64,000 nucleotides of DNA from Iodidimonas sp. SYSU 1G8 (GTDB taxonomy: Bacteria; Pseudomonadota; Alphaproteobacteria; SMXS01): the NCBI RefSeq assembly GCF_039655775.1, contig NZ_JBBYXJ010000001.1:992001-1056000 (forward strand). Reading direction: 5' to 3'. The notes below the pieces were generated by a model. The model ran no database searches and was not told the DNA's origin. It worked only from the letters and a program-made list of their open reading frames with translations. The stretch's first letter is position 1, and the number at the start of each line of letters is the position of its first letter. Below, one piece after another: positions 18,745 to 27,926 of this stretch. The position numbers and the translations under genes were made by a program.

Positions 18745-20640
18745 ATGGCGCGACGACGTAGAAGATCCGGCACGGCCTCCCGGCGCATCCTGATCGCCAG
18801 CACGCTGCTGTTCGCGGCCTCGGTTGTCGCCTTCGTCGCCATGAAAACCGATATCGGCGAAACCGTGCTGCAGCGGGCGAAGGCCCTGTTTCCCGGAAAG
18901 GAAGCCTCGTGCTGCGGCGCCGATGTGGTTCTGACCGAATTCCAGGTCCCGGTTCTCGCCCACGTGGTCAACGACCTCTGGCGGGACGGCCGGGCTCGCG
19001 ACATCCCTCTTCCGCCCCGCCTGGCGACGCCGGCACAGGCCGTGAACGTGTCGCTGATCTCGCAGGGACGCGTGGTTCAGCAAGTATGGCTGCGCGAAGG
19101 CACGGTGATGGATGCGCTGACCGCCGCCCTCACCCAGTTCCGCAGCCAGCTGTCCGCCGAGCAGAAGGCCGGCATTGACGGCGTCGAGCTTTTTCTCGGC
19201 CACTCGTTCCGTACGGTCGATCTGGAAGATTATGATGAACAGGTCTTCGCCCAGCATCATCGCGGCATTCGCGGCCTGGAGATTTCCTACGAGGACCGAA
19301 CCGCGCTCTATTCGCCCCTGATGCTGCTGCGCCGCAACCGCTCGGCGAGCCGGCTGGCCGACGAGTTCGCCGCCGACAGCAAGATCGACCGGGCCTCGCT
19401 GCTGCGTCACGGCGTGTTCAAGATCTTCGACGGCGAGCAGATCCGGGTCACCCTGGGCAGCAATCCCTCGGCCGTGCTGATGGAGCGCGGCAATGTCTAC
19501 GTCAAGGTCACCGACATCGACGCGGCCGCCGTGCGCCGCGCCGCCGCGCTGGCGACCGACTGGCTGGCCGCCAACGTGGCGATCGATGGCGCCTTGCCCT
19601 ACGGCTACCGGCCAAGCGACCTGAAACCGCTCGAGGGCAGCAACCGTATCCGGCAATGGATGGCGACCATCGCCTTGCAGCGTGCGGCACAGCCTCGTCT
19701 CGATCCCGAAATCTGGGAACTGGCCGAGCGCAACCTCGCCTACAACATCGCGACGACCTACCGCCAGGAAGGCGCGCTGGGCGTCATTACCACCGAAAAC
19801 AACCAGGTCAGCCTCGGCAGCGTGGCGCTTGCCGCCCTCGCGATCCACGAGAGCCATGTCGGCGGTCGCCATGCGGCCGAGCAGGCCGCCCTCGGTGCCA
19901 CGATAGACAGTCTGCATGGCGAGAATGGCGCCTTCCGGACGTTCCTTCGGCCCGCGACACGAAACGACAACCAGAACTTCTATCCCGGCGAAGCGCTGCT
20001 GTACTGGGCCTCGCTGGAAGCAAAACAGCCTGACCCCCAGCGGCTCGAGCGTTTCATGCAGTCGTTTCGCCATTACCGCGACCGGTACCGGGCGAAACGG
20101 AACCCGGCCTTCATCGGCTGGCACAGCCAGGCCGACTACACGATGTGGCAGGTGACGCGGGCACCGGAGCTGCGGGACTTCGTGTTCGAGATGAACGACT
20201 GGCTGATCAGCCTCCAGCAATGGGCCGTCCCGACCGAATATCGCGATCTGATGGGCCGTTTTTACGCACCGGGCGCCGGATATGGCCCGCCCCATGCCTC
20301 GTCCAACGGTATCTACCTCGAAGGGCTCGTCGATGCGTTCGCGCTCGCGCGGGAGACCGGCGACACCAAGCGTGCCGAAGCCTACCGGATCGCCATCCTG
20401 CGCGGACTGCGCAGCGTGTTGCAATTGCAGTTTTCCGATGATACGGACATGTTCTATGTGCCGCCCGGCTTTCGCCGTTACGTCAGGGGCGGCATCCGGA
20501 CGACCGAATACGACAACGTCATCCGGATCGACAACGTCCAGCATAACCTCATGGCCATGCTGAAAATTCTTCAGGTCTTCAAGCCGGCGGATTATCGGTA
20601 TCCCGACGCGTCAGCGCCGACGCCGCAGCCGAAACCTTGA
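18745..20640 (+). CDS. Membrane-anchored protein of unknown function with a C-terminal helical (toroid-like) domain
   Basis: A 631-residue protein. A basic N-terminus (MARRRRRS) and one helix (residues 14-35) predict a signal anchor with the rest in the periplasm. Cys56-Cys57 follow soon after. Residues 60-270 form a mixed domain (VSLISQGRVVQQVWLREGT, FKIFDGEQIRVTLG); some motifs recall AMMECR1-like proteins, but I cannot assign it. Residues 270-610 are helix-rich with GALPYGYRPSDLKPLEGSNR, RQWMATIALQRAAQ and YYWAS-like repeats, which suggests an alpha/alpha toroid as in glycan lyases, epimerases or GH-like enzymes. It begins 120 nt after the PEP-CTERM gene on the same strand. A role in processing the polysaccharide or the sorted protein is a guess from location. 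Confidence 0.7.
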   Translation: MARRRRRSGTASRRILIASTLLFAASVVAFVAMKTDIGETVLQRAKALFPGKEASCCGADVVLTEFQVPVLAHVVNDLWRDGRARDIPLPPRLATPAQAVNVSLISQGRVVQQVWLREGTVMDALTAALTQFRSQLSAEQKAGIDGVELFLGHSFRTVDLEDYDEQVFAQHHRGIRGLEISYEDRTALYSPLMLLRRNRSASRLADEFAADSKIDRASLLRHGVFKIFDGEQIRVTLGSNPSAVLMERGNVYVKVTDIDAAAVRRAAALATDWLAANVAIDGALPYGYRPSDLKPLEGSNRIRQWMATIALQRAAQPRLDPEIWELAERNLAYNIATTYRQEGALGVITTENNQVSLGSVALAALAIHESHVGGRHAAEQAALGATIDSLHGENGAFRTFLRPATRNDNQNFYPGEALLYWASLEAKQPDPQRLERFMQSFRHYRDRYRAKRNPAFIGWHSQADYTMWQVTRAPELRDFVFEMNDWLISLQQWAVPTEYRDLMGRFYAPGAGYGPPHASSNGIYLEGLVDAFALARETGDTKRAEAYRIAILRGLRSVLQLQFSDDTDMFYVPPGFRRYVRGGIRTTEYDNVIRIDNVQHNLMAMLKILQVFKPADYRYPDASAPTPQPKP

Positions 20641-20671
20641 CTTTTTCTAAACATGTTTGACTATGTTGCCC
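20637..20671 (+). promoter_or_regulatory. TetR gene promoter with overlapping operator-like palindrome
   Basis: TTGACT (20637-20642) is a good -35 and overlaps the stop codon of the preceding gene. Seven nt later lies AACATGTTTGA (20650-20660), part of the perfect palindrome AAACATGTTT (20649-20658). A -10 would fall near 20660-20667 (GACTATGTT). The same TTGACT plus AACATGTTTGA arrangement occurs before the Rieske gene at 25216-25240. Autoregulation by the TetR protein is the natural reading. Confidence 0.55.
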
Positions 20672-21274
20672 ATGGCTAGGACGGCGTCAGCGGCGAAGGC
20701 CGACCCCAAGGAAGAACTGATCGCGGCGGCGGACGAAATCCTCGCCGAGCAGGGCGCGGCGGCGGCAACCGTGCGGGCCATCACCGCGCGGGCCGGCGTC
20801 AACATGGCCGCGGTCAACTACCACTTCGGCTCGCGCGATGGCCTCTTCATCGCCATCTGTGGCCGTCACATGCACGAGGCGAACGCCCGTGTCCTGCAGA
20901 ACCTCCAGAGTCTCGAGGACAGGCACTCCCCTCCGAGCGTCGCGGAAATCTTCCATCCGCTGGTCGAAACCGCGTTTCAGATCTGGGTCAACGACAAGGT
21001 CCTGCGCGCCCTGCGCAGCATGGTGTTCTTCAGTCCGGAAACGGCCGAGCGCCTGAACGTGTCCCAGATGTCGGAGGTCTACAACCGGATGCGCGCGGCG
21101 CTCATCCGCGCCTGCCCCCATCTGAGCGCCCAACAGATCAGGCAGCGCTTCGGCTTCGCCATCGGCGCCATCATGAACCACGTCCACAATCAGGACGCCC
21201 ACCTCCAGTGGAACCACGATGACGTGTCCATGGAAGAACTGGTGGCGTTCATCGCCGCCGGCTTTCGCGCCTGA
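20672..21274 (+). CDS. TetR/AcrR-family transcriptional regulator
   Basis: A 200-residue regulator. The N-terminal HTH is typical (AADEILAEQGAAAATVRAIT, then GVNMAAVNYHFGSRDGLF). The remainder is a helical ligand and dimer domain; the helix-loop style resembles the CecR-like group. The frame can start at TTG 20657, ATG 20663 or ATG 20672. Since the likely -10 covers 20660-20667 and no ribosome site is seen, I chose ATG 20672 (MARTASAAK), probably a leaderless or nearly leaderless message. A palindrome in its own promoter recurs before the divergent-side Rieske/amidohydrolase operon, so it is a candidate regulator of both. The phosphatase gene follows by 56 nt and may be co-transcribed. Confidence 0.93.
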   Translation: MARTASAAKADPKEELIAAADEILAEQGAAAATVRAITARAGVNMAAVNYHFGSRDGLFIAICGRHMHEANARVLQNLQSLEDRHSPPSVAEIFHPLVETAFQIWVNDKVLRALRSMVFFSPETAERLNVSQMSEVYNRMRAALIRACPHLSAQQIRQRFGFAIGAIMNHVHNQDAHLQWNHDDVSMEELVAFIAAGFRA

Positions 21275-21330
21275 TCGACGGCACACGCGGACGGGCATCC
21301 GGCAAGCGTCAGTCAGGGGAAGCAAATCAG

Positions 21331-22140
21331 ATGAACAGAACGACCGGCGTCATCGTCGCCATGCTTGTGCTCCTTGCCACCGCCGGCGCGGACGCCGCCG
21401 AACAGGATGAACACGGCTTCCCCAAGCTGCCACCCGGCATGCCAGCGGGCTATCTGGGCACGTCGAGCCTGCCGGACAGCCTGGCGCTGCTGCCGCCGCC
21501 GCCCGAGGCCGGTTCCGCCGCCGCCGCGCGGGACGAAGACGCGCGTAAGGCGATGACGCGAGCACCGGACTCACCTCGGTGGAAACAGGCCACGAGTGAT
21601 GCCGACCTGCATTTCCCGCACGGCGGGCAGGTCTTCGCCTGTACCACGGGCGTGGCGCCCGACAAGGACACCACGCCGGCGCTTTACAGGCTTTTGCAGC
21701 GATCGCTCCTCGATATCGGTCTGTCGACATACAAGGCCAAGAACCATTACAAGCGGGTCAGACCCTTTGTCGCCATGGGCACGGCCAGCTGCTCGCCGGG
21801 CGACGAGGCCATGCTGCGCGGCGACGGTTCCTATCCGTCGGGTCACGCCGCCGTGGGCTGGGGCTGGGCGCTGCTGATGGCCGAGATCGACCCCGACAAC
21901 GCGGACGCCATCCTGCAACGGGGACGGGACTTCGGACAAAGCCGCCTCGTGTGCAATGTCCACTGGCAGAGCGACGTGGAGGCCGGCCGTCTGGTCGCCT
22001 CCGCCGCCGTCGCCCGGCTGCATGCCGATCCCGGCTTCATGGCCGACCTGCAGGCCGCCAAGGCCGAGTTCGCCGCCGCGCGCGTAGCCGGAAAACCGGC
22101 ACTGGCAGATTGCGCCGCCGAGAGGGAATCGCTGCGATAG
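21331..22140 (+). CDS. Class A acid phosphatase (PAP2 superfamily), exported
   Basis: A 269-residue periplasmic phosphatase with a signal peptide (cut after about residue 22, GADAAE). The three PAP2 motifs are present and intact: KNHYKRVRP (K-X6-RP type), YPSGHA, and SRLVCNVHWQSD (SR-X5-H-X3-D). It should hydrolyse phosphate monoesters with a phospho-His intermediate. The ribosome site GGGGAA lies just before the ATG. Being behind the TetR gene with a 56-nt gap suggests common transcription. The gene converges with the amidohydrolase gene across a strong hairpin. Confidence 0.93.
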   Translation: MNRTTGVIVAMLVLLATAGADAAEQDEHGFPKLPPGMPAGYLGTSSLPDSLALLPPPPEAGSAAAARDEDARKAMTRAPDSPRWKQATSDADLHFPHGGQVFACTTGVAPDKDTTPALYRLLQRSLLDIGLSTYKAKNHYKRVRPFVAMGTASCSPGDEAMLRGDGSYPSGHAAVGWGWALLMAEIDPDNADAILQRGRDFGQSRLVCNVHWQSDVEAGRLVASAAVARLHADPGFMADLQAAKAEFAAARVAGKPALADCAAERESLR

Positions 22141-22166
22141 GCGGGACGGCGAGGCGCCGCCCCGCC
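22140..22166. terminator. Bidirectional hairpin between convergent genes
   Basis: GGCGGGACGGCG-AGG-CGCCGCCCCGCC makes a 12-bp stem with one A-C mismatch and a 3-nt loop. It fills the 33-nt gap between the phosphatase stop and the amidohydrolase stop. There is no T tract on either strand, so it may act as a weak or factor-aided terminator in both directions. Confidence 0.5.
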
Positions 22167-22173
22167 TGCCGGC

Positions 22174-23910
22174 TCAGCGATTGTGGAGCAGCACCTCGCC
22201 CGGTGTGGCGCCGGTGCACTCCAGGCCCTCGAAGGTGATCTGGCCGTTGACGATGGTGAAGTTGAGCCCCTCGGCCCGCTGGGACCGCCGCCAGCCGCCG
22301 GCGGGCTGATCGTACAGCTTCTCCATCTTGTCCCATGACGGCGTGCGGCGGATGGTCTGCGGATCGTAGACCACCACGTCGGCCGGCGCGCCCTCGCGCA
22401 GGATGCCGCGATCCGGCAACCCGAGCACATGAGCCGGCAGGCGGCTGAGGCCGTAATGGGCCTGTTCGGCGGTGATCAGCCCTTCCTCGCGCACCATCCA
22501 CTCCAGCAGGTCCGTCGGATAGGCGCCCTGCACCACGAAATGGCAGTGCGCGCCGCCATCCGAAATACCCGGCACGACATAGGGGTTGGCCAGCACCTTG
22601 GCCGTGGTCGCGGCGGAGGTGTCATAGGCGTTGCCGACAAACTCGGCCTTGAACTCCGACTCGATCGCGATGTCGAGGATGACGTCGGCGATATGCCGGC
22701 CTTCGGTGGCGGCGATTTCGGCCACGCCCCGGTCGACATATTTGTCGAGTTGCGCATATCCCGCCGAGCCATGCACCCGCAGCTCCTGCGCCACGCCGGA
22801 CGTACCCAGCCCGCCGACCAGCCGCTTGTCGATATCCTCGCGCAGACCACGGCGGATGCTTTCGTCCTTCATCATGGCGACGCGCTGCTCATACGGACCG
22901 TTCATGACGCCGTGCCAGTGCGGTGCATTATCCCAAAGGCTCCAGTCCTCGAAGGTCAGCAGGGTCGGCGAGCGCACCGTGAACCCCATGCCATAGACCT
23001 GAAGGCCCTTTTCGTGGGATTCGTTGAGCCAGTCGATGAAGGCCTCGTGCCGCGCCGGGTCCTTGTCGTTCGCCAGCAGGATATTGCGCACGATCGGCCG
23101 GCCCGATGCCTCGGCCAGCGAGGTCATGAAATCCTCGACCGTGTCGTGGTCCGACGGCGCGCCATCGAACATCTCGATGAATCCCTCGCCCCGCTTGCCC
23201 AGCTCGCGGCCGAACTCGATCAATTCGTAGTCGGGGATCACGTCCGTGGGCATGGGCGAGCCGTCCCAGTCCGGCTGGACCGAGGGCACGCCGCAGCGCT
23301 GGTAGGAGAAGCCGCAGGCGCCGTGATCCATGGCCTCGTTCATCAGCGCGAACATCTGCTGCTTTTCCGCTTCCGTCGGCCGGCGGCTCTTGGCCTCCTC
23401 GACGCTGCCCATCACATAGGCATAGAGCGGGTTGAGCGGCACCAGTGTCTGGCAGTTCACGCCCTTGGGGATGCGCTTCAGATGCTCGATCCACTGCGGC
23501 AGCGTTTCCCAGCCATATTTGTCCCATTCCATGCCTTCCTTCATGGTCTCGAAGGAAATCGCCTCGTTGCGGGTCATCATCATCTGCGCCCGCTCGCGCA
23601 TATGCGGCGGAATTGGTGCGAAACCGAAGCCGCAATTGCCCAGCAGCACCGAGGTGACGCCGTGCCAGCCGGAGATCGTGCAATACGGGTCCCAGAGGAT
23701 CTGCGCGTCGTAATGGGTGTGGATGTCGATGTATCCCGGCGCGACGATGTTGCCGCCGGCATCGATCACGCGGTCGGCGCTCGCCGTCTTCCGGATGCCG
23801 CCGATCTTGGCCACCTTGCCGTTCTTGATGCCCACATCGGCGCGAAAGCGCGGAAGGGTCGTGCCGTCGATGACGGTGCCGCCGCGAATGAGAATGTCGT
23901 AGTCGGACAT
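22174..23910 (-). CDS. Amidohydrolase of the N-acyl-D-amino-acid deacylase type
   Basis: A 578-residue zinc-dependent amidohydrolase. The metal-binding IDIHTHYDAQ and the Cys-containing LLGNCGFGFAP are characteristic of D-aminoacylases. The late GISDGGAH supplies the catalytic Asp, and the urease-like beta-sandwich is split between the ends (DILIRGGTVIDG; GAPADVVVYDP). It probably cleaves an N-acyl or cyclic amide bond; the natural substrate is not shown by sequence. The ribosome site GGGGAGA precedes the ATG. It lies 33 nt behind the Rieske oxygenase gene, so both should act in one catabolic route. A paralogue is encoded at 59024-60721. Confidence 0.93.
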   Translation of the reverse strand: MSDYDILIRGGTVIDGTTLPRFRADVGIKNGKVAKIGGIRKTASADRVIDAGGNIVAPGYIDIHTHYDAQILWDPYCTISGWHGVTSVLLGNCGFGFAPIPPHMRERAQMMMTRNEAISFETMKEGMEWDKYGWETLPQWIEHLKRIPKGVNCQTLVPLNPLYAYVMGSVEEAKSRRPTEAEKQQMFALMNEAMDHGACGFSYQRCGVPSVQPDWDGSPMPTDVIPDYELIEFGRELGKRGEGFIEMFDGAPSDHDTVEDFMTSLAEASGRPIVRNILLANDKDPARHEAFIDWLNESHEKGLQVYGMGFTVRSPTLLTFEDWSLWDNAPHWHGVMNGPYEQRVAMMKDESIRRGLREDIDKRLVGGLGTSGVAQELRVHGSAGYAQLDKYVDRGVAEIAATEGRHIADVILDIAIESEFKAEFVGNAYDTSAATTAKVLANPYVVPGISDGGAHCHFVVQGAYPTDLLEWMVREEGLITAEQAHYGLSRLPAHVLGLPDRGILREGAPADVVVYDPQTIRRTPSWDKMEKLYDQPAGGWRRSQRAEGLNFTIVNGQITFEGLECTGATPGEVLLHNR

Positions 23911-23943
23911 GATGGTCTCCCCGATTTCAGATGAGGTGAAGGG

Positions 23944-25170
23944 TCAGACCGCGGCAGCGGTCCTGACGATGCGGCCGGCCAGCAAGGGCTCTACCCGCAG
24001 ACGCTCGGGCACGTGGTCGCCGAGCATGCGGTCCACATGCTCCTCCAGGTGATAGATGCGCTTTTCGTGATAGCTGCATTTCGGCCCGGCGAAGACGGGA
24101 GAGCGCAGCGAGTGCTGGATGTGCTCCATGTTCCAGGTGTCTTCGTCGAGCACGATGTCGAAATAGGCGGCGCGCTGCGCGTGGTCCGGCGGCGGATCGC
24201 CCTGCCCCCAATCCTCCTCGACCACCGAGGTGACGATCCGCGTGTGTTCGTGACCCAGCGGCCAGAACTCCATGAGGATGTAGCCGGTCTCGCTGGCCGG
24301 GGTCAGGAGGTTGGGAAAGATGTGATAGGACACGTTGGCCTCGCGGCGCAGCACCCGGCCCTCGTCCCAGTCATCGGGAATCACATCCGGCGGCGCCTTG
24401 TAGTTCTGCGGCGTCGCCGGCACGATCATGCGCGAGTGGCCATTCTCGAAGAAGGTCGACACCGTTCCCCGGTAGTCGATGGTGCCCGAGACCGTTTCCG
24501 GATGGATGGTCGTGATGTGGTAGACCTCGATGAAGGCCTCGATCGCGACGCGCCAGTTGCAGGCGATCACGCGCTCGCGGCGGTTCGAGGGCCGCTTGTG
24601 CGCCGCCCAGGCGAAATCCGTCGCTACAGGACCCAGCCACGCCGCGAGATCGGGCGCATCGGCATGGACATTGATGAAGATGTGATCGCCCCACAGCTCG
24701 CAGCGCACCGATTTGAGGTTGTGCTTGCTGCGGTCCATGTCCGGGGAGAAGTCCCAGGGACCGGGGATGCCGACCAGCTTTCCTTCCAGGTCGTAGGTCC
24801 AGCTGTGGAACTGGCACTTGAGACGGCTGCCGGCCTTGCCGCATGGCTCGCGGGTAATGGTCGCGCCCCGATGCTGGCAGGTATTGTAGAAGGCGCGGAT
24901 GACGCCGTCGCGCCCGCGCACGAGCAGGATCGGCGCCCTGCCGAAATTATCGAATGACTTGTAGTCGCCGGGCTCCGGAAGCTCCCATGCCGAGCCGGCG
25001 TAGAGCCACGCCTTGTCGAAGACATGCTCCTGTTCCAGCCGGTGGAACGCCGCATCGATATAGCGCTCGCGCGGAATGGGCGGCAGGTCCGGAAACCCGT
25101 CCGGCGGCGCGTTGCGAGACCGCTCGCGCTGGATTTCCACACGTAGAAGATCGACTGTCGCGGTATCCAT
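23944..25170 (-). CDS. Rieske-type aromatic ring-hydroxylating oxygenase, alpha subunit
   Basis: A 408-residue oxygenase. The Rieske [2Fe-2S] ligands are CQHRG and KCQFHSW (C-X-H and C-X2-H). The mononuclear iron site has EVYHITTIHPET (two His) with a downstream Asp in FDIVLDED. Members of this family hydroxylate or demethylate aromatic, betaine-like or steroid substrates and need a separate reductase, which is not encoded nearby. The strong ribosome site GGGGAGGAAG precedes the ATG. It is the first gene of an operon with the amidohydrolase, from a promoter that carries the TetR-gene operator element. Confidence 0.93.
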   Translation of the reverse strand: MDTATVDLLRVEIQRERSRNAPPDGFPDLPPIPRERYIDAAFHRLEQEHVFDKAWLYAGSAWELPEPGDYKSFDNFGRAPILLVRGRDGVIRAFYNTCQHRGATITREPCGKAGSRLKCQFHSWTYDLEGKLVGIPGPWDFSPDMDRSKHNLKSVRCELWGDHIFINVHADAPDLAAWLGPVATDFAWAAHKRPSNRRERVIACNWRVAIEAFIEVYHITTIHPETVSGTIDYRGTVSTFFENGHSRMIVPATPQNYKAPPDVIPDDWDEGRVLRREANVSYHIFPNLLTPASETGYILMEFWPLGHEHTRIVTSVVEEDWGQGDPPPDHAQRAAYFDIVLDEDTWNMEHIQHSLRSPVFAGPKCSYHEKRIYHLEEHVDRMLGDHVPERLRVEPLLAGRIVRTAAAV

Positions 25171-25211
25171 GGCTTCCTCCCCGAAGCTGGTGAACCGTCG
25201 TAAGCCGTATC

Positions 25212-25240
25212 AATTTCAAACATGTTACAATCAGAGTCAA
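25212..25240 (-). promoter_or_regulatory. Rieske operon promoter with a TetR-type operator element
   Basis: On the minus strand, TTGACT (25240-25235) is followed after 8 nt by AACATGTTTGA (25226-25216), which lies in the spacer before a weak -10 (GAAATT, 25217-25212; 17-nt spacing). The start codon is 41 nt further on. The identical 11-mer after the identical hexamer occurs in the promoter of the TetR gene at 20637. Confidence 0.55.
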
Positions 25241-25286
25241 GACAGAGCTTTGGCCTCCATCTTGACTCCCTCACAGCGACGAAATG

Positions 25287-27926
25287 TCAGCCGCCGGCGA
25301 CGCTCTTGGACGCGATCTCGTACACGTCCTTCGACAGACCGGGCTGGCGCAGGATCCGGTCAATCTCGGCCCGCATCAGGCCACGCCGCTTCTCGTCGTA
25401 GCGGCGCCACTGGTTGAAGCCACCCACCATGCGCGCCGCGACCTGCGGATTGATCCGGTCCAGCTCCAGCACCGTGTCGGCGAGCAGTTCGTAGCCGCCG
25501 CCATGGGCGTCATGGAAACGGGGCATGTTGGATTGGGTGAACGCGCCGATCAGCGAGCGGACCCGGTTCGGATTCCTGATGGAGAATGACTCGTGCCCCA
25601 TCAGCGACCGGACCCGTTCCAGCGTATCGGGCAATTCGGACATGGCCTGCACCGACAGCCACTTGTCGATCACCAGCGGATTCTTCGACCATTTTTCGTA
25701 GAACGCCTGCACGGCTTCCTCGCGCTCCGGCACATCCGTATTGGCGAGCGCGGTCAGCGCGGCCAGCGAATCGGTCATGTTGTCGGCCCAGAAGAACTGG
25801 TCGCGGCACAGTGCCACGGTCTCCCGCGACGGATTGGCCATGAGATAGAACAGGCAGGCATTCTTGAGGCTGCGGCGGCCCACCGCGTCGGATGCGAAGC
25901 GATAGGGCTGGCGATCGTTCAGGCGATGGTAGATCGCCAGGAACCTGTCACCCAGCCGACGCGACAGCTCGGCGCGCACGAACTGGTGCACATGCTCGAT
26001 GGCCTCCACGTCGATCTCGGCCATCTGCTGCGCCAGATAGGACTGGCTGGGCAAGGTGATGGCGAGCGCGATGAACGCGGGATCGAGGCTGGCGCTGGTC
26101 AGCACCGCCTCGAACGCGGTGAGGAAGGTCGGGTCCAGCACCATGGGCTGGCGTTGGCGATAGGCCGTCACCAGATCGAGCATCAGGCCGGTCGCCAGGG
26201 TCTGGCCGGCTTCCCACCGGGCAAACTCGTCGGGATCATTGCTCAGCAGGAACGCCAGATCCTCGCGGCTGTAGCCTGCATCCAGCGTGACGGGCGCCGA
26301 GAACCCGCGCAGCAGCGACGGCACCGGCCGCTCGCCGATACCGGTGAAGGTAAAGCTCTGCTCGGGCTCCTTGACGTCGAGCACGCGGCTGAGCGGGCCG
26401 TCGTCATTGTCGCCCTCGAAGGTGAGCGGCATCTGGCGGCCGCCCGCGCCCAGCAGACCAACCGCCAGCGGGATATGAAGCGGACGCTTTTCCGGCTGGC
26501 CCGGAGTCGGCTTGGCCGACTGCCTGACCCTCAGCGTGTAGGTCTGCTCGCCCTCGTTCCAGGCGCCGCGGACTTCCAGATGCGGCGTGCCGGCCTGGCC
26601 GTACCAGCGGGTGAACTGGGTGAGGTCGACGCCGGAGGCATCCTGCATGGCGGCGACGAAATCCTCGACCGTGGCGGCGGTGCCGTCATGGCGCTTGAAG
26701 TAGAGGTCCATGCCCTTTCGGAAGTTGTCCTTGCCGATGATGGTCTGCATCATCCGGATGATCTCGGCGCCCTTCTCATACACGGTCGCCGTATAGAAAT
26801 TGTTGATTTCAATATAGGATTCGGGACGCACTGGGTGCGCCTGCGGCCCGGCATCCTCGGGGAACTGGCGGGCGCGCAGCATCTTGACGTCGTCGATGCG
26901 CTGCTCGGCGGCCGACTGCATGTCGGCGGAGAACTGCTGGTCGCGGAAGACGGTCAGGCCTTCCTTCAGGCTCAGCTGGAACCAGTCCCGGCAGGTCACG
27001 CGGTTGCCGGTCCAGTTATGGAAATATTCGTGCGCGATGACGCTTTCGATGGCGTTGAAGTTGGCGTCGGTCGCGGTTTCGGGCGTCGCCAGCACATAGG
27101 CGCTGTTGAAGACGTTGAGGCTCTTGTTCTCCATCGCGCCCATGTTGAAGTCGCGGACGGCGACGATGTTGTAGATGTCCAGGTCGTATTCCAGACCGAA
27201 GACGTCCTCATCCCATTTCATGGATTTCTTCAGCGATTCCATGGCGTGCGCGCACTTGTCGCTGTCCTCGGCCACGGTATAGATCCGCAAGGTCACGTCG
27301 CGACCGGACGATGTGATGAAATGGTCTTCCACATGGGCCAGATCGCCGGCCACCAGGGCGAACAGGTAACTCGGCTTCAGAAACGGGTCTTCCCAGACCG
27401 CCTGATGCCGGCCGCCGTCGAGATCGTCGGTTTCCACCAGATTGCCGTTCGACAGCAGCACCGGATACTTCGTCTTGTCGGCGGTGATCCTGGTGGTGAA
27501 GCGGGACAGCACGTCGGGACGGTCGAGGAAATAGGTGATACGGCGGAAGCCTTCCGCCTCGCACTGGGTACAGAAATTGCCGCTCGACTGGTACAGGCCG
27601 GAAAGCTGGGTGTTTTCCTGCGGCTTGAGGCGCGTGACGATCTGGATTTCGGCCTCATGCCCGATCAGGGGAATGATCAGGCTGGCGGGCGTAACCGTGT
27701 AATCATCGCGCCCCAGCGCATGGCCATCGACCTTCACGGAGATCAGCTCGAGGTCCTCGCCATCCAGGGTCAGCGGGTCCTCGGACCGCGTCCGCCGCAC
27801 CGACATGGTCGATGTGACGAGGGTGGATTCCTCGGCCAGATCGAAGCGCAGATCGACCTTCTCGATGGCGAAGGACGGCGAGCGGTAATCCTGCAGGCGG
27901 ATGGTCTGGGGGCTGGCGTGGTCCAT
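25287..27926 (-). CDS. pepN: Aminopeptidase N (M1 zinc metallopeptidase)
   Basis: An 879-residue cytoplasmic aminopeptidase of the bacterial PepN type. The exopeptidase motif reads GAMENKSLN and the zinc site is HEYFHNW with the second Glu in LKEGLTVFRDQQFS. The long C-terminal helical domain (ending near KDVYEIASKSVAGG) fits the usual length of 870-890 residues. It removes N-terminal residues from peptides during protein turnover. The gene stands alone: 116 nt separate it from the Rieske promoter and 142 nt from the upstream fatty-acid gene. Confidence 0.97.
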   Translation of the reverse strand: MDHASPQTIRLQDYRSPSFAIEKVDLRFDLAEESTLVTSTMSVRRTRSEDPLTLDGEDLELISVKVDGHALGRDDYTVTPASLIIPLIGHEAEIQIVTRLKPQENTQLSGLYQSSGNFCTQCEAEGFRRITYFLDRPDVLSRFTTRITADKTKYPVLLSNGNLVETDDLDGGRHQAVWEDPFLKPSYLFALVAGDLAHVEDHFITSSGRDVTLRIYTVAEDSDKCAHAMESLKKSMKWDEDVFGLEYDLDIYNIVAVRDFNMGAMENKSLNVFNSAYVLATPETATDANFNAIESVIAHEYFHNWTGNRVTCRDWFQLSLKEGLTVFRDQQFSADMQSAAEQRIDDVKMLRARQFPEDAGPQAHPVRPESYIEINNFYTATVYEKGAEIIRMMQTIIGKDNFRKGMDLYFKRHDGTAATVEDFVAAMQDASGVDLTQFTRWYGQAGTPHLEVRGAWNEGEQTYTLRVRQSAKPTPGQPEKRPLHIPLAVGLLGAGGRQMPLTFEGDNDDGPLSRVLDVKEPEQSFTFTGIGERPVPSLLRGFSAPVTLDAGYSREDLAFLLSNDPDEFARWEAGQTLATGLMLDLVTAYRQRQPMVLDPTFLTAFEAVLTSASLDPAFIALAITLPSQSYLAQQMAEIDVEAIEHVHQFVRAELSRRLGDRFLAIYHRLNDRQPYRFASDAVGRRSLKNACLFYLMANPSRETVALCRDQFFWADNMTDSLAALTALANTDVPEREEAVQAFYEKWSKNPLVIDKWLSVQAMSELPDTLERVRSLMGHESFSIRNPNRVRSLIGAFTQSNMPRFHDAHGGGYELLADTVLELDRINPQVAARMVGGFNQWRRYDEKRRGLMRAEIDRILRQPGLSKDVYEIASKSVAGG

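Follow-up and report, generated by a model that had tools for sequence, protein, structure and literature searches.

A palindromic site resembling that of PsrA, shared by a TetR-family regulator gene and a Rieske–amidohydrolase operon in Iodidimonas sp. SYSU 1G8: a probable autoregulated local regulon

The Locus

The DNA considered here, called the window throughout, is the whole stretch of 64,000 nucleotides (nt) at positions 992,001 to 1,056,000 of contig NZ_JBBYXJ010000001.1 of Iodidimonas sp. SYSU 1G8, an alphaproteobacterium. It carries a gene for a TetR-family regulator resembling PsrA and, on the opposite strand, a predicted operon for a Rieske oxygenase and an amidohydrolase (Table 1). 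The same hexamer and the same 11-mer precede both units. The regulator most likely controls itself and the operon, because the site is shared, its exact form is absent from the rest of the genome, and it is kept in relatives.

The TetR (+) and Rieske (−) units converge, with an acid phosphatase gene between them. A sequence-only reading of the window had described them as divergently placed and had given 20637-20660 as the TetR gene; that interval is its promoter, and the gene runs from 20672 to 21274 (+). An alternative TTG start of the TetR gene, at 20657, falls within operator 1. The operon is postulated from strand and spacing.

Table 1. Features of the locus, in window coordinates.
Feature	Positions	Strand	Basis and remarks
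-35-like box of the TetR gene, TTGACT	20637..20642	+	sequence; overlaps the stop codon of an upstream 631-aa gene
Operator 1 (putative), AAACATGTTTGA	20649..20660	+	palindrome AAACATGTTT at 20649-20658; conserved upstream of TetR orthologues
PsrA-like TetR-family regulator, 200 aa	20672..21274	+	Pfam, NCBIfam and PDB matches; ATG aligning with relatives
PAP2 / PhoC-like acid phosphatase	21331..22140	+	56 nt behind the TetR gene
Amidohydrolase, 578 aa, second operon gene	22174..23910	-	Pfam Amidohydro_3; PDB 3gip, 1m7j
Rieske oxygenase alpha subunit, 408 aa, first operon gene	23944..25170	-	Pfam Rieske and Ring_hydroxyl_A; orthologues
5' leader of the Rieske gene (extent inferred)	25171..25204	-	Shine-Dalgarno-like GGGGAGGA; contains CAGCTTCGGGGAGGAAG
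Operator 2 (putative), AACATGTTTGA, core AACATGTT	25216..25226	-	alignable with LLM-gene operators of relatives
-35-like box of the Rieske operon, TTGACT	25235..25240	-	sequence; kept in relatives

The Shared Site

At the TetR promoter TTGACT (20637-20642, +) is followed after 7 nt by AACATGTTTGA (20650-20660), and at the Rieske/amidohydrolase promoter the hexamer (25240-25235, −) is followed after 8 nt by the same 11-mer (25226-25216). Both matches are exact, as the sequence-only reading had it. The palindrome that it saw in the 11-mer stands for the TetR copy, where it spans 10 base pairs (bp; AAACATGTTT), and shortens to just 8 bp (AACATGTT) in the Rieske copy.

The genome-wide search proposed in that reading was run. 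In the 3,918,757 bases of the genome (two contigs) there are two exact copies of the 11-mer, ahead of these two genes, and its reversed pattern, the control, is absent; no scatter of the exact form through coding regions is seen. With up to one mismatch, the window still holds just the two known copies (shuffle mean 0.20; at least two copies in 1 of 100 shuffles). The argument that an 11-mer is unlikely to recur by chance in 64 kb does not hold, as 4681 of the 58522 distinct 11-mers of the window repeat. A third-order model built from the window (65% G+C) also predicts 0.58 copies of AACATGTTTGA per genome. On these figures two unrelated promoters might share an A+T-rich 11-mer by coincidence, helped by a common promoter composition. 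Such a coincidence is contradicted by the conservation data: position is conserved and spacing similar in nine orthologous loci of two classes, and there are layouts in which one site stands before all the genes. Both genome copies, moreover, lie at these two genes. Among 11-mers with at least eight A/T only 4 of 685 repeat in the window, and AACATGTTTGA is the sole repeated 11-mer whose two copies are both preceded, at a distance of 3-20 nt, by TTGACT. We regard coincidence as negligibly probable.

A wider regulon, which may exist, was sought with a relaxed search. There are 42 matches to AAACATGTTTGA within two mismatches in the genome (some being one place read on both strands) versus 25 for the reversed control. 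The two known sites and six further places were looked at among them, and the locus of a paralogue of the regulator was fetched as well. None of the six places offered a convincing target: four fall within open frames (C2:518352, which reads GGAAACATGTTTCC; C1:1904381, in an OYE-type gene; C1:1110661; and C1:175510), a frame judged by eye to be transporter-like has C1:2245014 at its 5' end, and C1:1505687 falls between two larger minus-strand frames, yet within a 236-aa plus-strand frame.

Conservation of the Site in Relatives

The TetR protein was searched for in 60 genomes, the window's own (G000) included; genomes and loci are cited by G and L numbers where they have to be told apart. Orthologues at 53-100% identity are present in seven (G000, G002, G003, G005, G006, G007, and G009). 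All seven have a palindrome that matches TCAAACATGTTTGA at 11-14 of 14 positions and begins 24-48 nt before the matched start. Two more orthologues (49 and 47% identity), in L109 and L110 on contigs labelled Gammaproteobacteria, have sites of 14 and 12 of 14. In all nine (47-100% identity, two proteobacterial classes) TTGAC and a AACATGTTT palindrome stand ahead of the gene or of its run; in L109 the site precedes the first gene of the same-strand run rather than the TetR gene itself. More distant TetR matches (26-43% identity) score at most 10 of 14 within 250 nt upstream in 20 of 21 cases. The random control windows (n = 2660) were drawn from loci that partly hold sites, so the upper tail of this control is inflated.

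Box and palindrome were also searched for together. ACATGT occurs 210 times on both strands of the window and of 32 loci (L086-L117, partly overlapping), and it has TTGAC 9-11 nt upstream in 20 instances. These reduce to 15 distinct sequences, every one a site of the present set. A sixteenth site, from G009, has TTGAC 8 nt upstream. The composite pattern TTGACN6-9AAACATGTTT was found in 9 of 385 genomes of the class, drawn without G002, G004, G006, G008, and G009. Five of the nine belong to the window's family (seven sites, all from this set); the other four, out of 380 genomes outside the family, have one each, a background level (reversed control, five in all 385).

Gene order ties the site to the operon as well as to the regulator. 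In two alphaproteobacterial genera the TetR, Rieske, and amidohydrolase genes follow one another behind one site. G007 has the order site-TetR-Rieske-amidohydrolase, and G009 (the same locus as L108) has site-TetR-Rieske-amidohydrolase-LLM, where LLM denotes a luciferase-like monooxygenase. L109 has site-Rieske-TetR-LLM-amidohydrolase, and L110 site-TetR-Rieske-(other)-LLM-amidohydrolase. The window's genus has two units instead, site-TetR and site-LLM-(OYE in G005 and G006)-Rieske-amidohydrolase (G002, G003, G005, and G006), and the two are on separate contigs in G003 and G006. Overall, the site is ahead of 10 of 12 Rieske loci (G000, G002, G003, G005-G009, L109, and L110), the 12 being those at 42-100% identity that adjoin an amidohydrolase homologue or the end of a contig. 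No site was found at L114-L117, whose amidohydrolase is 48% identical.

The Regulator and its Relation to PsrA

The regulator scores above the cut-offs of the TetR-family models (TetR_N 49.4 bits, cut-off 24; TetR_C_30 37.3 bits, cut-off 26.3), and its AlphaFold2 model consists of helices throughout (pLDDT 86.8, pTM 0.78). Its best NCBIfam model is PsrA, whose short name suggests that it was built on the Vibrio protein. The score of 75.9 bits is far under the 300-bit cut-off, and the protein is therefore filed as PsrA-like and not as PsrA. The nearest PDB chain is 2fbq, both by sequence (E 7e-14) and by fold (Foldseek E 1.9e-07, TM 0.61, root-mean-square deviation 5.6). This chain is PA3006, which an excerpt of PMC5722320 identifies as psrA of Pseudomonas. 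The PsrA-type recognition helix is present, GVNMAAVNYHFGS of the regulator being nearly identical to GVNLAAVNYHFGS of 2fbq.

According to excerpts of two papers, the PsrA site is C/GAAAC-N2-4-GTTTG/C, PsrA represses its own promoter, and autoregulation holds for PsrA and for its orthologue Smlt2053 (PMC13104628, PMC10304680). The operators of the window read TAAAC-AT-GTTTG and GTAAC-AT-GTTTG, each with one perfect half and one half with a single mismatch, which is close to the published site type. The sequence CAAACATGTTTG is found at the TetR gene in G003, G006, G007, and G009. The likeness to PsrA and Smlt2053 covers family, nearest structure, and recognition helix, and probably extends to the type of palindrome at the regulator's own promoter. 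The present protein differs in that it is only about 26% identical, has just two exact sites in its genome, and is linked to a Rieske–amidohydrolase operon rather than beta-oxidation genes or rpoS. Hallmarks of PsrA are control of fatty-acid degradation genes and/or rpoS and a response to long-chain fatty acids. Neither exact copy of AACATGTTTGA is at a fatty-acid gene or rpoS, and the six near-matches, which cover the N2 spacer only, gave no convincing target of this or another kind.

Two other groups of TetR proteins invite comparison. NicR2-type repressors are local, with a small regulon, the regulator beside the operon, and the operator in the promoter. NicR2 itself (nicotine degradation, 5fgl) belongs to another subfamily and is 16-19% identical, and here, unlike in such systems, regulator and operon are convergent and have separate operator copies. 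KstR and KstR2 (cholesterol degradation) likewise are TetR regulators of an oxidative degradation pathway and use short palindromic sites. They are mycobacterial, their motif differs from the operator described here, and the KstR regulon is much larger.

Weighing the Proposed Local Circuit

Taken together, conservation and the layouts with one site for all genes give strong support to the proposal, already made in the sequence-only reading, that the regulator gene and the Rieske/amidohydrolase operon alike answer to the TetR protein through this palindrome. We consider it very probable that a local, autoregulating, PsrA-like TetR repressor acts on its own gene and on the convergent operon. Judged from sequence, this is a well supported, yet fairly ordinary, local gene circuit.

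A number of observations weigh against it. A sigma-70 scan of 20400-25400 on both strands returned no promoter-like site, so the word promoter as used here rests on the TTGAC box, position, and conservation. The palindromes of the window (10 and 8 bp) are weaker than the 14-bp TCAAACATGTTTGA of several relatives, and deviant sites are found also in G002 (CCGAACATGTTTAA), L110 (TTAAACATGTTTAA), and G008. When the 16 sites are aligned at their core, the majority reading is TTGAC-N-TTCAAACATGTTTGAAA, and every one of the 16 has TTGAC at 8-11 nt from the ACATGT that follows it; the rows were picked for ACATGT, so that the core is invariant partly by construction, whereas the TTGAC box and the flanks played no part in the choice. 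The twenty-first of the distant TetR matches, in G008, is just 27% identical and nevertheless has a similar site (score 11 at -164), in a TetR-site-Rieske arrangement whose Rieske gene is divergent and is followed by the contig end. L112 (Acidimicrobiia) and L113 have amidohydrolase and Rieske genes without the site; L113 is a second amidohydrolase-Rieske pair in the L109 assembly, behind a gene for a GntR/FCD-family regulator and followed by a P450. G001 has kept the LLM promoter, which is followed by the LLM gene and the contig end, and a search of that genome gave no close orthologue of TetR or Rieske. The site count, finally, covers these 12 Rieske loci out of a much larger set of Rieske genes, many of them more distant.

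The same side of the balance holds a second PsrA-like protein. A paralogue of the regulator (28% identity) is encoded in the window's genome (G000:C1:1280471-1281097), and its G005 counterpart reaches 121.5 bits against the PsrA model of NCBIfam, nearer PsrA than the local regulator. In G002 (L142 2131) and G005 (L143 3056) the gene of the PsrA-like paralogue adjoins a palindrome with 13 of the 14 consensus positions, and this one-base variant precedes an enoyl-CoA hydratase/acyl-CoA dehydrogenase unit. Since the paralogue counterparts lie beside an operator variant, the paralogue could bind such sites too, and it may share its operator type with the local regulator. Taken further, the site could be read mainly by the paralogue, with the Rieske operon in a wider fatty-acid-responsive regulon and the adjacent TetR gene merely one target. 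This is very unlikely in our view. The window's genome has the two exact sites alone and, at the paralogue's own locus (L141), no site match within two mismatches, and the nine orthologue-bearing genomes have the site at the TetR gene or its run, as autoregulation would predict.

Proposed Mechanism

If the local regulator is indeed the protein that reads the site, the palindrome (in relatives, consensus TCAAACATGTTTGA) that closely follows the -35-like box would be occupied by a TetR dimer, which at both promoters would shut out RNA polymerase. An inducer that is imported, or that arises in the pathway, would then bind the C-terminal domain, free the protein from DNA, and so switch on the operon together with the regulator. 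By analogy, the inducer might be acyl- or acyl-CoA-like, or a ring-derived intermediate. With a 17-nt spacer counted from the -35-like box, the TetR transcript would begin at about its ATG (20672).

At the Rieske promoter the protein could instead activate transcription or play a dual role. Excerpts of PMC13104628 and PMC5722320 describe repression by PsrA as well as its activation of rpoS, and no good -10 box emerged from the sigma-70 scan. Yet the operator comes after the -35-like box, in the interval where the spacer is expected, and a dimer bound there should keep polymerase out, which makes activation an unlikely mode and leaves repression as the favored one.

If correct, the scheme gives a TetR subfamily that is otherwise uncharacterised a small two-site regulon and a clear operator, and it suggests that an operon beyond fatty-acid metabolism can be run by a PsrA-like regulator. 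Operator and regulator would also be a direct handle toward the substrate of a Rieske/amidohydrolase/LLM pathway in little-studied proteobacteria. Among the matches listed, open-licence PubMed Central (PMC) searches gave no paper on this gene set, nothing relevant on PsrA and Rieske together, and no bacterial regulator of such kind for the string AAACATGTTT.

The Pathway

The amidohydrolase is a distant relative of D-aminoacylase and N-acyl-D-glutamate deacylase (PDB 3gip and 1m7j). Its HTH and GNCG residues align with HGH and GNCG of 3gip and with HTH and GNCG of 1m7j, and we take the HxH and GNCG stretches to be the metal site. Residues ~205-453 are not aligned to the solved structures by phmmer. 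Within the genus the protein is 93-95% identical, versus 77-79% for the Rieske protein, 68-72% for TetR, and 77-83% for pepN. In six more distant proteobacterial loci it is still 73-85% identical (L087, L088, L090, L091, L107-L111, and L113 were compared). These values suggest strong functional constraint on the amidohydrolase.

The partner genes in relatives encode the LLM and, in two of them, an OYE-type flavoenzyme whose best models, mycofactocin-linked OYE and BaiCD, both score below cut-off. Further neighbours are an SDR, a SnoaL-like protein, a second LLM, and a truncated AMP-ligase gene in L109, a polyketide-cyclase-like protein and a second LLM in L110, and an enoyl-CoA hydratase and a SnoaL-like protein in L108. 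Such a gene set would suit a route that opens a ring or lipid-like compound by oxidation and then hydrolyses it; amines are not specifically indicated. The substrate class named in the sequence-only reading, an N-acyl or aromatic amine, is a guess, because the amidohydrolase is just a distant D-aminoacylase relative and the partners fit a ring or lipid-like compound equally.

Rieske-type genes as a class are common in these bacteria: at E<=1e-30 the 3.9-Mb genome of the window has 35 places, and the nine relatives searched have 21-44 each.

Origin of the Arrangement

In the window the Rieske gene follows its site directly, and its leader resembles that of the LLM gene. The stretch CAGCTTCGGGGAGGAAG in this leader is common, 17 of 17 bases, to the LLM leaders of G001, G002, G003, and G005, and shares 13 bases with that of G006. 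The stretches upstream of the Rieske genes of six relatives have at most nine bases in common with it. The window's genome has no close LLM homologue, the best match being 36% identical. The simplest reading is that the LLM gene was lost in the window's species and that the Rieske gene now stands behind the old LLM promoter and leader. A parallel loss of the OYE gene was considered and is not supported, G002 and G003 being likewise without an OYE orthologue. Close OYE genes are found just in G005 and G006 (matches in G000, G001, G002, G003, G007, and G009 are 30-36% identical), so the gene need not have been in the window's ancestor.

The LLM gene of G001 (L097 6869-7653) stands behind a perfect operator and is in two frames, with a switch near codon 75; either a decaying pathway or an assembly fault would account for this.

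In the ancestral module the TetR, Rieske, amidohydrolase, and often LLM genes probably formed a single run on one strand, with one site ahead of them all. A broader proposal is that a mobile, self-regulated catabolic cassette (PsrA-like TetR, Rieske, amidohydrolase, and usually LLM) in scattered Alpha- and Gammaproteobacteria degrades some compound, its regulator having been re-targeted from fatty-acid control with the PsrA-type operator kept. We put this forward tentatively, as somewhat less than an even chance. A search of 81 genomes of L110's family gave one hit at E<=1e-30, L110 itself. A plasmid search with the amidohydrolase returned 16 records, all below 60% identity, with 38.7% the highest among the matches listed.

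Neighbouring Genes

The acid phosphatase, which the sequence-only reading had offered as a possible member of the regulon, is not supported as a conserved member: comparison with the loci of relatives gave no match, neither in L086-L103 at E<=1e-15 nor in 22 loci at E<=1e-8, two of the contigs searched running out within 0.8 and 2.2 kb of the end of the TetR gene. Its co-transcription with TetR in the window's genome is possible. The stretch between the convergent TetR and amidohydrolase genes is ~40 nt in G005 and holds the acid phosphatase gene in the window's genome.

The Rieske operon is preceded by pepN and a FadJ-like gene, both in its own orientation, and by an oppositely oriented SoxA-like gene. 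The locus together with the pepN, FadJ-like, and SoxA-like genes of the window's genus is also found in L104 (CALQFM020000045.1), a record titled Candidatus Kuenenia stuttgartiensis. Its gene order matches that of G003:C45, and the Kuenenia title therefore looks wrong.

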